Positions 51,953-56,364 of a DNA stretch of 56,364 bases are shown in pieces; the stretch's first letter is position 1; each line of letters begins with the position of its first letter. Source of the stretch: an uncultured Candidatus Saccharibacteria bacterium. GTDB lineage: Bacteria > Patescibacteriota > Saccharimonadia > Saccharimonadales > Saccharimonadaceae. The stretch spans positions 1 through 56,364 of the forward strand of contig CAMJSX010000005.1 of NCBI GenBank assembly GCA_946408595.1. The letters run 5' to 3'. A program made the position numbers and the translations under genes. Under the pieces are notes generated by a model. That model had not been told where the DNA came from. It did no database searches and worked only from the letters and a program-made list of their open reading frames with translations.

Positions 51953-52381
51953 ATGGCAGCGAAAAGAACTAAGAACGTTACTCCGTCAGAGAAGACAAAG
52001 GAATACTGGGAAAAAGTTACTGAGATACTGGATACCAGCAGCGATTACGTATCAATGATCAAGCTGCGGGCCAATCTGGTGGATCCAGTGACGGCGTTCA
52101 AGGTACAGCACGTACTCGATGAGTACTACGAAGGAAAGATGTCGCATCTTTACGATGCAATCGCAACAGTGGCAGAAAAGTTTTTTGCCAAGGTTGAGAA
52201 ACTCAACATCTATTGCTGTTCCGAAGGGCTGCCGATTGTGGCAAAACCAGATATTCTCTTTAACCTCCTGACCAACAACGAAAGAAGGAAGTACTACCGC
52301 GATAGCGTGAAGAAAGGTTTGAAAACCAATATCATTATACCTTTACAGGTTATCGAGATGAACTTCCGGGGCCGGAAATAA
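51953..52381 (+). CDS. Orphan 142-residue protein, unknown
   Basis: I do not recognise a family. The product is mostly helical and charged, with no signal peptide or membrane segment. Notable segments are KTKEYWEKVTEILDTSSDYV, two adjacent Cys (IYCCSEG) and NLLTNNERRKYYRDSVKKG near the C-terminus. AAAGGGGGG is 9 nt before the ATG; an ATG at 51948 is out of frame and gives a short unrelated peptide. It has one of the strongest promoters in the window and its own terminator, so it is probably highly expressed as a single gene. Confidence 0.75.
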   Translation: MAAKRTKNVTPSEKTKEYWEKVTEILDTSSDYVSMIKLRANLVDPVTAFKVQHVLDEYYEGKMSHLYDAIATVAEKFFAKVEKLNIYCCSEGLPIVAKPDILFNLLTNNERRKYYRDSVKKGLKTNIIIPLQVIEMNFRGRK

Positions 52382-52929: not shown

Positions 52930-53352
52930 ATGGCTACTATTGACCAACAATTCGTAGAATATATCGTAAAAACCTTAGTCAACAATCCAGATAAAGTTTC
53001 GGTGGAGCGTAAAATAGATGAAAAAGGCGTTTTGCTCTCTCTAACAGTGGATCCTGAAGATGTCGGACGCGTGATTGGTAAACGTGGTGTCACTGCTCAA
53101 TCAATCCGTATGTTGCTCCGTGCCCTTGGTACCAAGCAAGATGCCCGCTACAACCTCAAGATTGTCAATACCGATGAAGAGGGTGAAGCTCGCGAACACA
53201 AGCATGAGCACAAGGAACCAGCAGCAGAAGCTCACGAAGAACCAGCTGAAGCACCAGAAATCGAAGACGAAGAGCCTGTGGAAAACTCTCCATCCGAACT
53301 CGCCGAGAAGACTCGCGCTGAGCTCGCTGATCTAGACGATCTCGATATCTAA
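52930..53352 (+). CDS. khpA: KhpA-like KH-domain RNA-binding protein with acidic tail
   Basis: Small single KH domain protein, cytoplasmic RNA chaperone type. Residues 1-78 match KhpA (YlqC): FVEYIVKTLVNNPDKVSVE and the GxxG loop in VIGKRGVTAQSIRMLLRALG. A ~60-residue His/Glu/Ala/Pro-rich acidic tail follows, giving 140 residues against the usual 75-80. It follows rpsP as in many bacteria, but as a separate transcription unit here. Confidence 0.92.
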   Translation: MATIDQQFVEYIVKTLVNNPDKVSVERKIDEKGVLLSLTVDPEDVGRVIGKRGVTAQSIRMLLRALGTKQDARYNLKIVNTDEEGEAREHKHEHKEPAAEAHEEPAEAPEIEDEEPVENSPSELAEKTRAELADLDDLDI

Positions 53353-53368
53353 AACTATGGTTTTTAAG

Positions 53369-53399
53369 ATGGCATCTCTCTTAAGAGGTGCCATTTTTT
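53369..53399 (+). terminator. Terminator after khpA
   Basis: Stem ATGGCATCTCT/AGAGGTGCCAT (one G-U pair) with a four-base loop (CTTA), then six T. Confidence 0.92.
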
Positions 53400-53411
53400 A
53401 TAAAAATCTAC

Positions 53412-53439
53412 TTGACTAAATTAAAAGCTTATGTATAAT
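53412..53439 (+). promoter_or_regulatory. Promoter P1 upstream of rpoB
   Basis: TTGACT (53412-53417), 16 nt, TATAAT (53434-53439); transcription would start near 53446, in front of the candidate RNA. Confidence 0.8.
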
Positions 53440-53445
53440 AATATA

Positions 53446-53542
53446 CAAGCTAACTAACTGCGAGTTCGCTTGAAAACAATTAACCAACGTTGAGAGTTTT
53501 ATACATGTCTAGAAAATCGCTTTACCGTTGAAGCGATTTTTT
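53446..53542 (+). ncRNA. Candidate small RNA or attenuated leader upstream of rpoB
   Basis: A stretch of ~97 nt runs from the P1 start to an intrinsic terminator. It contains a small hairpin GCGA-GT-TCGC near its 5' end and a palindrome CAACGTTG. I see no start codon with ribosome site and no meaningful open frame. A second, independent promoter follows for rpoB, which favours a discrete RNA, but a terminated leader of rpoB is equally compatible. Confidence 0.5.
53513..53542 (+). terminator. Terminator of the candidate RNA
   Basis: Perfect 10-bp stem AAAATCGCTT/AAGCGATTTT with loop TACCGTTG and a six-T run. Confidence 0.93.
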
Positions 53543-53554
53543 GGTGAAAAAGTC

Positions 53555-53583
53555 TTGTCAAATTTAACAAAGTGCGCTAAAAT
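53555..53583 (+). promoter_or_regulatory. Promoter P2 of rpoB
   Basis: TTGTCA (53555-53560), 17 nt, TAAAAT (53578-53583). Transcription from about 53590 gives a leader of ~120 nt. Confidence 0.82.
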
Positions 53584-53589
53584 AAAATA

Positions 53590-53708
53590 TAAGAAGTAGT
53601 GTGCCCTGTTTTTGTAAGCTTATGGGAGCTGGCGACTCTCTGGGGGAAAACTGGGCAGTAATCTTCGGCGCTAAGATTATAATAATAACACTAATAAAAA
53701 GAGGTAGA
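53590..53708 (+). promoter_or_regulatory. Structured 5' leader of rpoB
   Basis: Two helices can be drawn. TGCCCTGTTTT (53602-53612) pairs with AAAACTGGGCA (53647-53657), with one T-T mismatch, closing a 34-nt apical region. TAATCTT (53659-53665) pairs with AAGATTA (53673-53679). No T-run follows, so control of translation, RNA stability or protein binding is more likely than termination. The ribosome site GAGGT is at 53701. Confidence 0.6.
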
Positions 53709-56364
53709 ATGGCTACAAAAAAGAAGGCCGGTGAGAGAATTTTTTTCACCGAAGGTGACCAAGCCCTCCCGATTCCTGATCTCACAGCACATCAGAAAGA
53801 TTCGTGGAACGACTTCGTCAAAAATGGCCTACGCGAAGTTTTTGCTGAGCTAAACCCGATAGACGACTATACGGGCCAAAAACTGTCGCTAAGGTTCAAA
53901 GATTATTATTTTAAAGAACCAAAGGAATCTGAGCAGCAAGCAAAATACAACCTTGCCACTTATGAAGCTCCTTTGCACGTGCTAGTAGAGCTTGAAAACA
54001 AAGTCACTGGCACTAAAAAAGAACAGGATATTTACTTTGGTGACTATCCTTGGATGACTGAAAGGGCAACTTTCATCATCAACGGTACTGAGCGTGTGAT
54101 TGTTTCACAACTTATTCGTTCAGCCGGTGTGTTCTTCAATAAAGAGACCATTGGTCTTAAAAATTATTACGGCGCAAAGGTAATTCCTGGTCGTGGTGCA
54201 TGGCTCGAGTTTGAAACCGCTGCTAACGGCACGATTAACGTCAAGATTGACCGCCGCCGCAAAATTCCAGTAACCACGTTCCTCCGAGCTCTTGGTATGA
54301 GCAAATCAGAAATCAAGAAAGCCTTCGAGAAAATTGATACTGGCGACAAGAAATACATCGAAATCACACTTGAAAAAGATACTACTTCAAGCCAAGGTGA
54401 AGCTTTGCTCGAAGTTTATCGTAGGATTCGTCCAGGCGATCTCGCCACGGTGGAAAACGCCAAATCCATGATCGAAAGAATGTTCTTCGATCCAAAGCGT
54501 TATGATTATTCCAACGTCGGTCGTTTTAAGATTAATCGCCGACTCCATTTCGATACGCCAAATGATGCCAAGCATCGCACCTTGCAAATGCAAGACGTGG
54601 TCGGCATCGTAACGGAAATCATTCGTTTGAATAACACTCAAGAGCCAGCCGATGATATCGACTCCTTGTCGAACCGTCGTGTGAAGCTAGTAGGTGAATT
54701 GGTCCAAAGGCAATTCCGCCTCGGTATGCTTCGCTTACAACGAAACATTCTCGACCGTATGTCAATGGCAAATCCAGAAGACGTCACCCCATCACAACTT
54801 TTGAACTCTCGTCCAGTGGTAGCAGCAGTGAAAGAATTCTTCTCTACCTCACAACTTTCACAGCTGATGGACGAAGTCAACCCGTTCTCTGAGCTTGCAC
54901 ACAAACGCCGTCTAAGCTCGATGGGTCCTGGTGGTCTGACTCGTGAACGTGCCGGATTTGATGTTCGTGATGCTCACCCAACCCACTACGGCCGTATTTG
55001 TACGGTAGAAACCCCAGAAGGTGGCAACGTCGGTCTCGTGCTTAACTTTGCAACTTACGCGAGAATCAATGAATATGGTTTCATTGAAGCGCCTTATCGC
55101 GTAGTTAAAAATGGTAAAGTGACTGACGAAGTTGTTTATATGGATGCTGACACCGAAAACGATATGGTTATCGCTGACGCATCAGTCAAACTAAACAAAG
55201 ATGGTAAATTCGTTGAAGACTGGGTATCCGCTCGTGTTCACGGTGCGCCTGCTCAGGTAGAAGCGAAAAAAGTCACTCACATCGATGCTGCACACAAGGA
55301 AATTCTTGGTGTTTCTGCATCACTTATTCCATTTGTTGAGAAAAACCGTGTTGACCGCTCTCTCATGGCCTGCGCCATGCAGAAGCAAGCAGTGCCACTT
55401 CTTCGCCAAGATAATCCAGTAGTTGGTACTGGTATCGAAGGTGAAGTGGCTAAAAACACTTCTCAACTCGTCATGGCTACCGGTACCGGTGTCGTTAAAA
55501 AAGCCGATGGTATATCCATCATCGTAACCTACGATAAAGGTGGTGACCATGAATACAAGTTGCAACACTTTGAGAAAACCAATGATGACCGTTGCTACAA
55601 CCAACACTGCGTGGTCACTCGTGGTCAAAAGGTGAAAAAAGGCGACATCCTCATTGAGGGTGCTTCCATCAACAATGGCGAGCTGGCCCTTGGTCGTGAT
55701 CTTCTCGTGGCTTTCATGCCATGGCGTGGTTACAACATGGATGACGCAATCGTGATCTCTAACCGCTTAGTTGAAGACGATACTTTGACCTCAATCAATA
55801 TTAAAGATTTCGATGTCGAAGTACGTGAGACCAAACTTGGTCCAGAACAAGTTACTCGTGATATTCCAAACGTTTCTGAACACTCTCTCCGCCACCTTGG
55901 CGAAGATGGTATCGTCACGGTTGGTTCGGAAGTCAAAAACGGCGATATTCTCGTCGGTAAGATTACACCAAAAGGTGAGCAAGAACTCAGCTCAGAAGAA
56001 AGACTTCTCCGCGCTATCTTTGGTGAAAAAGCCAAAGACGTACGCGATACTTCAGTTAGAATGAACGGTTCATCAACTGGTAAGGTTGTGGACGTCCGTG
56101 TCTACACCCGTGAACAAGGCCACGAATTAAAAGCTGGCGTGCTCATGCAAATCAAAATCTTTGTCGCTGAAATGCGCAAGATTGGCGTCGGCGATAAACT
56201 CGCTGGTCGTCACGGCAACAAAGGTGTGGTCTCACGCGTTCTACCAATAGAAGATATGCCATTTATGGAAGATGGTACGCCAATCGATATCATCCTTTCA
56301 CCAATGGGCGTGCCTTCCCGTATGAACCTCGGTCAGCTCTTTGAAACTCACCTTGGTATGGCTG
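53709..56364 (+). CDS. rpoB: RNA polymerase beta subunit (partial, 3' end outside window)
   Basis: Catalytic-core subunit of RNA polymerase; the first ~885 residues are present and the frame is open to the window edge. The rifampicin region reads SQLMDEVNPFSELAHKRRLS, then SMGPGGLTRERAGFDVRDAHPTHYGRICTVETPEGGN. The E. coli D516, H526 and S531 equivalents are kept, and L533 is Met. Other conserved blocks are GRDLLVAFMPWRGYNMDDAI and the closing KIGVGDKLAGRHGNKGVVS. Lineage insertions of the E. coli type appear absent. No rplJ-rplL lies upstream, unlike the classical rplKAJL-rpoBC order. Confidence 0.97.
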   Translation, partial: MATKKKAGERIFFTEGDQALPIPDLTAHQKDSWNDFVKNGLREVFAELNPIDDYTGQKLSLRFKDYYFKEPKESEQQAKYNLATYEAPLHVLVELENKVTGTKKEQDIYFGDYPWMTERATFIINGTERVIVSQLIRSAGVFFNKETIGLKNYYGAKVIPGRGAWLEFETAANGTINVKIDRRRKIPVTTFLRALGMSKSEIKKAFEKIDTGDKKYIEITLEKDTTSSQGEALLEVYRRIRPGDLATVENAKSMIERMFFDPKRYDYSNVGRFKINRRLHFDTPNDAKHRTLQMQDVVGIVTEIIRLNNTQEPADDIDSLSNRRVKLVGELVQRQFRLGMLRLQRNILDRMSMANPEDVTPSQLLNSRPVVAAVKEFFSTSQLSQLMDEVNPFSELAHKRRLSSMGPGGLTRERAGFDVRDAHPTHYGRICTVETPEGGNVGLVLNFATYARINEYGFIEAPYRVVKNGKVTDEVVYMDADTENDMVIADASVKLNKDGKFVEDWVSARVHGAPAQVEAKKVTHIDAAHKEILGVSASLIPFVEKNRVDRSLMACAMQKQAVPLLRQDNPVVGTGIEGEVAKNTSQLVMATGTGVVKKADGISIIVTYDKGGDHEYKLQHFEKTNDDRCYNQHCVVTRGQKVKKGDILIEGASINNGELALGRDLLVAFMPWRGYNMDDAIVISNRLVEDDTLTSINIKDFDVEVRETKLGPEQVTRDIPNVSEHSLRHLGEDGIVTVGSEVKNGDILVGKITPKGEQELSSEERLLRAIFGEKAKDVRDTSVRMNGSSTGKVVDVRVYTREQGHELKAGVLMQIKIFVAEMRKIGVGDKLAGRHGNKGVVSRVLPIEDMPFMEDGTPIDIILSPMGVPSRMNLGQLFETHLGMA

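Follow-up and report, generated by a model that had tools for sequence, protein, structure and literature searches.

How the synthesis of the RNA polymerase core is controlled is a fundamental problem. In the best-studied bacteria this control is tied to ribosomal-protein operons. The L10 leader is an autoregulatory RNA which heads the rplJL(-rpoBC) unit in many bacteria and so influences the RNA polymerase genes; in Bacillus subtilis it is an attenuator (PMC4538822). In Escherichia coli (rplL-rpoB attenuator) and in cyanobacteria (rpoBC leader, cluster 245), attenuators are located inside a ribosomal-protein operon, with ribosomal-protein genes on one side and rpoBC on the other (PMC1242208).

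We analyzed a stretch of 56,364 nucleotides, called the window here, from an uncultured Candidatus Saccharibacteria bacterium (assembly GCA_946408595.1, contig CAMJSX010000005.1). Saccharibacteria are tiny episymbiotic bacteria. An earlier note, made from the sequence of the window alone, had described two promoters between khpA and rpoB and had suggested either a separate RNA or a two-step attenuation of RNA polymerase synthesis. The analysis presented here revealed two previously undescribed RNAs in this region, a free-standing small RNA (sRNA) and a folded leader of rpoB; no description of either was found in the open-access literature searched. For the fold of the leader the purine riboswitch is of interest, a three-way junction (P1-P2-P3) with pairing between the loops L2 and L3 and with P1 beside the expression platform.

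Results

Organization of the region between khpA and rpoB

The gene khpA starts at position 52930 and encodes a KH_KhpA-B domain according to Pfam. The gene for the beta subunit of RNA polymerase, rpoB, is located at 53709-56363 on the forward strand, contains Pfam Rpb2 domains and continues past the end of the window. The gap between both genes (53353-53708) comprises 356 bp and holds two unrelated RNAs. Upstream of both, a terminator-like hairpin with a 14-bp stem followed by a U run is located at 53366-53397 on the forward strand (-18.9 kcal/mol, z -6.1), and the khpA transcript is predicted to end at this hairpin of its own. At 51953-52381 we also observed a 142-aa open reading frame without a Pfam match, which is flanked by the RNase III gene on one side and by rpsP on the other.

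A DNA search with matches in 81 of 99 genomes of the same genus revealed two conserved blocks, 53447-53545 and 53548-53676. Annotation of 60 further stretches demonstrated that the first block, the sRNA, can lie on the strand of rpoB or on the opposite one and among other genes, whereas the second block, the leader, is always located immediately 5' of rpoB and in the same direction. Because the first block varies in strand and place and the second is fixed ahead of rpoB, the two are separate genes or elements.

Both RNAs are preceded by a promoter on the forward strand. The sRNA promoter (53412-53439, TTGACT-16-TATAAT) matches the consensus at 11 of 12 positions and the leader promoter (53555-53583, TTGTCA-17-TAAAAT) at 10 of 12. 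The number of promoter-like sites in the window stretch was not above chance (4 vs 2.7 expected from shuffles), and conservation was therefore used to decide on the promoters. For 97 distinct copies of the sRNA the -10 element is exactly TATAAT in 71 cases, mostly six bases 5' of the predicted start; the best -35 element averages 4.7 of 6 matching positions compared with 3.0 after shuffling, with a spacer of 16-17 bp. All 138 distinct leaders contain a -10 element with at least 4 of 6 matches ahead of the motif AAGAAG (0.51 when shuffled). This element stands 7 nt ahead of AAGAAG in 98 of the 138 leaders, and the spacer of the leader promoter is 17 bp in 112 of them. Conservation across relatives thus confirms both promoters of the earlier note.

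Location of the L10 leader and search for known RNA families

The L10 leader (RF00557) of this genome was detected on another contig (G000, contig C3, 79510-79657, locus L381) with 51.7 bits, which is over the Rfam cut-off. There it is followed by rplJ, rplL and the gene of an aminotransferase-like protein, not by rpoB. Because the L10 leader and rplJ-rplL are located on another contig and are followed by an unrelated gene, control based on L10 cannot reach rpoB. This agrees with the earlier note, which had stated that rplJL is missing upstream of rpoB and that the usual L10-leader control is inoperative at this gene.

Within the window RF00557 had no match at the gathering cut-off, and Rfam 15 at gathering score contained no family for either RNA. 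A search of the region at a relaxed E-value and a search of nine divergent related loci yielded chance matches only; the comparison with known leader families, which the note had proposed as a check, thus gave no Rfam family for the window and the nine loci. The covariance model of the purine riboswitch family did not match the window, nor the region at a relaxed E-value.

A small RNA independent of its neighbor genes

The sRNA (53446-53544, forward strand) has a length of about 97 nt and consists of a 5' hairpin, a conserved single strand and a terminator. The apical loop of the 5' hairpin H1 (53446-53472) contains the invariant sequence ACUGCGA (53457-53463), which is present in 66 of 66 copies, and four of the eight pairs of H1 show changes on both sides. 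The single-stranded middle contains GUUGAGAG (53489-53496), which is also invariant in 66 of 66 copies. Of 64 copies, 39 repeat the GUUG of this element in their terminator half, often in the terminator loop, compared with 31% in shuffled sequences. The intrinsic terminator (53509-53544) has a 16-bp stem (-17.6 kcal/mol, z -5.9), and the whole sRNA folds with a z of -4.6. The earlier note had located a terminator at 53513-53542; it is present at this site, with a hairpin that is a little longer.

A covariance model detected the sRNA in two genera only, in most genomes of the genus of the window and in genus g8, with a single copy in every matching genome except one. In two loci (L029, L065) it is located antisense between rpsP and khpA, in another (L085) about 3 kb from the leader, and in other genomes elsewhere or on another contig. 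As is characteristic of trans-encoded sRNAs, it combines a promoter and a terminator of its own with a location that is independent of the neighbor genes. The assumption of a separate RNA was therefore correct for this first element, a conserved and usually single-copy unit whose strand and distance to rpoB vary.

The reading of the sRNA as a small open reading frame was rejected: AUG UCU AAA is common, yet UUG/CUG-type triplets take its place in several copies. A search of its own genome for sRNA targets with CTCTCAAC, the complement of GUUGAGAG, resulted in 13 sites compared with 17 for the reversed control, and no clear target was apparent among these sites, the genomic context of a part of the 13 being inspected. 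Co-evolved pairing between sRNA and leader was not found (-27.1 kcal/mol for own and -27.4 kcal/mol for swapped combinations). The sRNA is most likely a trans-acting or protein-sequestering (protein-binding) RNA. It does not attenuate rpoB, which it happens to neighbor, and it is independent of the leader.

Position and distribution of the rpoB leader

The rpoB leader (53590-53708, forward strand), identified by covariance model and pattern scan, covers the whole sequence between the predicted start of transcription and the start codon. A first model, built from nine members of the genus, was searched against 295 genomes of the class and matched 97 of them. A model from distant members matched 94 genomes from 25 genera, three of these in another family. 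Inspection of the weakest matches, which belong to other genera and another family, showed that they are located directly 5' of rpoB. In addition, a pattern scan of GTDB with one genome per species resulted in 103 loci. For all 101 loci with rpoB on the stretch, the leader lies directly 5' of rpoB on the same strand, with 113-240 nt to the start codon. Nearly all labels listed for the scan loci are Saccharibacteria or taxon-less, and a few read Nomurabacteria or Chloroflexi. One genome bin (G239), which is possibly mixed, contains two different rpoB genes with a leader ahead of each (L332, L353).

The 5' end of the leader coincides with the predicted transcription start (AAGAAG after the -10 element). 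The leader is non-coding, with lengths evenly distributed modulo three and a stop in the rpoB frame in 138 of 143 cases. An in-frame GTG at 53601 gives rise to an apparent 36-codon extension of rpoB in the window (53601-53708), which is not conserved and represents an annotation trap. The corresponding N-terminal extension of the protein was rejected, most leaders holding an in-frame stop.

Covariation supports a three-way junction

The leader is predicted to fold into a three-way junction (P1-P2-P3) with pairing between L2 and L3 and an alternative helix, P0, at its 5' end. In the predicted fold of the window, P1 consists of UAGUGU (53597-53602) and ACACUA (53688-53693) and is the site of a GC to UA double change. 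P2 pairs GCCC-U-GUUUU (53603-53612) with AAAAC-U-GGGC (53647-53656) and is topped by an apical hairpin (53624-53640) with the loop L2, UGGCG (53630-53634). P3 is formed by UAAUCUU (53659-53665) and AAGAUUA (53673-53679); its loop L3, CGCUA (53669-53673), pairs with L2. The Shine-Dalgarno sequence of rpoB, GAGG (53701-53704), follows 7 nt after P1, and in 128 leaders the 3' strand of P1 ends a median of 8 nt ahead of the Shine-Dalgarno sequence.

In the main alignment of 86 distinct leaders, which was fitted to the model and therefore favours its structure, the covariation score was 0.508 compared with 0.168 for shuffled and at most 0.118 for slid sequences. Double changes were found at 22 of 28 pairs, and 92% of cells were paired. 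They affect all eight pairs of P2, all eight upper pairs and six of the seven pairs of P3. P1 is the least variable helix, with one-sided variation in the main alignment and one double change in a structure-free alignment. Alignments built without structure also showed covariation (0.376 vs 0.168, and 0.247 vs 0.161). In the window, the leader folds about as stably as its shuffles (z -0.2). Its folding energy is thus uninformative, and the structure rests on covariation. Compensatory base changes, whose absence the note had named as evidence against its proposal, are therefore present, and the covarying fold together with the fixed position before rpoB strongly confirms a structured leader for the second element.

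The complementarity of L2 and L3 is kept through change, as in UGGCG/CGCUA, UAGCG/CGCUA, UUGCG/CGCAA (L075) and UGGCGG/CCGCCA (L153), and further variants are still complementary, namely CGGC/GCCG (L163), AGGGG/CCCCU (L178, L181) and GGGC/GCCC (L182). This support consists of variants which were inspected and tallied; a fixed-column alignment lost the loop in distant rows. When loop partners were permuted among all leaders, the best loop-loop pairing did not differ significantly (10.58 vs 10.44, sd 0.22), because the loops are so conserved. The combination CGGCA/GGCCA of a group in genus g8 does not fit simple L2-L3 pairing.

A competing helix at the 5' end of the leader

In P0 the sequence GAAG (53593-53596) would pair with CUUC (53663-53666), which belongs to the strand and the loop of P3. 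The combination GAAG/CUUC is present in 142 of 143 leaders and GAAG/CUUU in the remaining one. Sister orders of the class contain GAGG/CCUC at these places, sometimes in a longer form (AAGAGG/CCUCUU), a compensatory change at the lineage level. P0 is nearly invariant within the order, and its support therefore comes from few events between orders. In these sister orders P0 and the inner hairpin are present and P1 and P3 are not clear. Forcing P0 had a median cost of 1.3 kcal/mol compared with the best fold (142 leaders). Two nearly equal and mutually exclusive folds are a requirement of a switch, and the two are presumed to interconvert.

The architecture of the leader varies. Many leaders of the genus (L035, L041, L033, L211 and others) contain an extra variable hairpin within the P3 loop, often GGAGUU(A), which is missing from the leader of the window and may be a second domain. 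The leaders of sister orders (L351, L352, L372-L378) follow the pattern AAGAGG-GCUUAAAU-hairpin-GUUUAG-CCUC, into which another domain is sometimes inserted (L372, L373). Some leaders have at least 100 nt between the fold and the Shine-Dalgarno sequence (L201, L259, family f6). Concerning an intrinsic terminator between the fold and rpoB, a 5-U run after CUUC was found in just 4 of 143 leaders, and the leader of the window has no 5-U run downstream of CUUC.

Discussion

We favour an independent trans-acting or protein-binding sRNA and, next to it, a dedicated two-state cis leader that would set the initiation of rpoB translation, a combined reading to which we assign an even chance. The leader probably controls the amount of RNA polymerase. 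In the proposed mechanism it would exist in two states which compete and differ little in energy. In state A, GAAG at the 5' end of the mRNA would pair with CUUC and enclose P2. In state B, the CUUC strand would be drawn into P3, P1 would be closed beside the Shine-Dalgarno sequence, and L2 would kiss L3. The balance between the two would set the initiation of rpoB translation, a closed P1 most likely hindering ribosome loading, and it would respond to a signal in trans, for which RNA polymerase itself (autogenous control) and a nucleotide are the leading candidates.

Because the leader is without a terminator and P1 ends shortly before the Shine-Dalgarno sequence, the simplest assumption is that it controls the initiation of translation. 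In view of the long spacers of some lineages, simple occlusion is unlikely to apply to all of them, and the leader may also act on transcription or on the decay of the mRNA. As the element is tied to rpoB alone, we prefer autogenous sensing of RNA polymerase to that of a general metabolite; such control would involve binding of the beta subunit or of RNA polymerase to the leader, and repression. Only tentatively do we extend this to a class-wide switch of Saccharibacteria which would monitor the amount of RNA polymerase, or a metabolite linked to transcription, via the 5' end of the rpoB mRNA. It is likewise possible, with some doubt, that such a switch stands in place of the control coupled to ribosomal proteins, which is absent where rpoB is apart from rplJL.

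The P1-P2-P3 topology, the L2-L3 pairing, very conserved unpaired positions and the alternative P0 pairing at similar energy would also suit a metabolite-binding riboswitch. By analogy with the purine riboswitch, whose fold is similar, a putative ligand tied to transcription capacity (a nucleotide or alarmone) would lock P1 by binding in a pocket of the junction and the kissing loops. Riboswitch classes usually serve several genes, whereas this element occurs solely before rpoB, with one copy per rpoB, and is without a match to any Rfam riboswitch; we regard this explanation as rather unlikely. P0 lies within 2-3 nt of the predicted 5' end of the mRNA and is common to all orders of the class that were seen, which would be consistent with a 5'-terminal structure that mainly stabilizes the mRNA by hiding its end from decay enzymes, with no switching. 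Such a stabilizer leaves the invariant loop sequences, the co-variation of L2 and L3 and the competing helices P1 and P3 unexplained, and appears unlikely.

The fold begins right where transcription starts, is associated with a gene for RNA polymerase and, in the families with long spacers, lies far from the Shine-Dalgarno sequence. These properties could indicate that the leader, while still nascent, directly contacts the RNA polymerase that transcribes it and modifies pausing or termination in rpoBC in a put-type manner, as a direct feedback; with no terminator downstream of the fold, this is improbable. In the two-step attenuation proposed by the earlier note, readthrough from the first promoter past the terminator at 53513-53542 would add to transcription from the second promoter. 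Both promoter units are in tandem on the forward strand in the window, but the terminator belongs to the independent sRNA, which is inverted or distant in many genomes and has no co-evolved pairing with the leader, so that this model had to be given up as very improbable. That the leader is a chance or merely slow-evolving intergenic sequence would fit its folding energy in the window, which is not below that of shuffles, and can practically be dismissed given the compensatory changes and the class-wide retention solely ahead of rpoB.

In this large and deep bacterial lineage, whose genomes are tiny and in which few regulators are known, rpoB carries a dedicated RNA element that is absent from Rfam. 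The leader offers a concrete, mutable target for studies on the control of polymerase levels in the Candidate Phyla Radiation. The conserved sRNA is an addition to the Saccharibacteria, for which none is described in the open-access literature searched.

In comparison with known systems, the sRNA shares with trans-acting bacterial sRNAs a sigma70 promoter, the length of about 97 nt, the 5' hairpin, a conserved single-stranded segment and a Rho-independent terminator. It differs in being without an Rfam family and in its invariant middle element, the GUUG of which is often repeated in the terminator loop. The similarity of the rpoB leader to the purine riboswitch, a family to which it does not belong, is one of topology only, the P1-P2-P3 junction and the L2-L3 pairing, whereas the sequence, the helix lengths, the conserved residues, the extra helix P0 and the constant association with rpoB are different. 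From the L10 leader, which precedes rplJ in this genome, it is distinguished by its position before rpoB and by failing RF00557. With the E. coli and cyanobacterial rpoBC attenuators it has in common an RNA structure located between other genes and rpoBC, with a probable effect on rpoB in the present case, and a possible autogenous control; it differs from them in the absence of a terminator, in its own rpoB promoter and in a covarying junction with loop-loop pairing.
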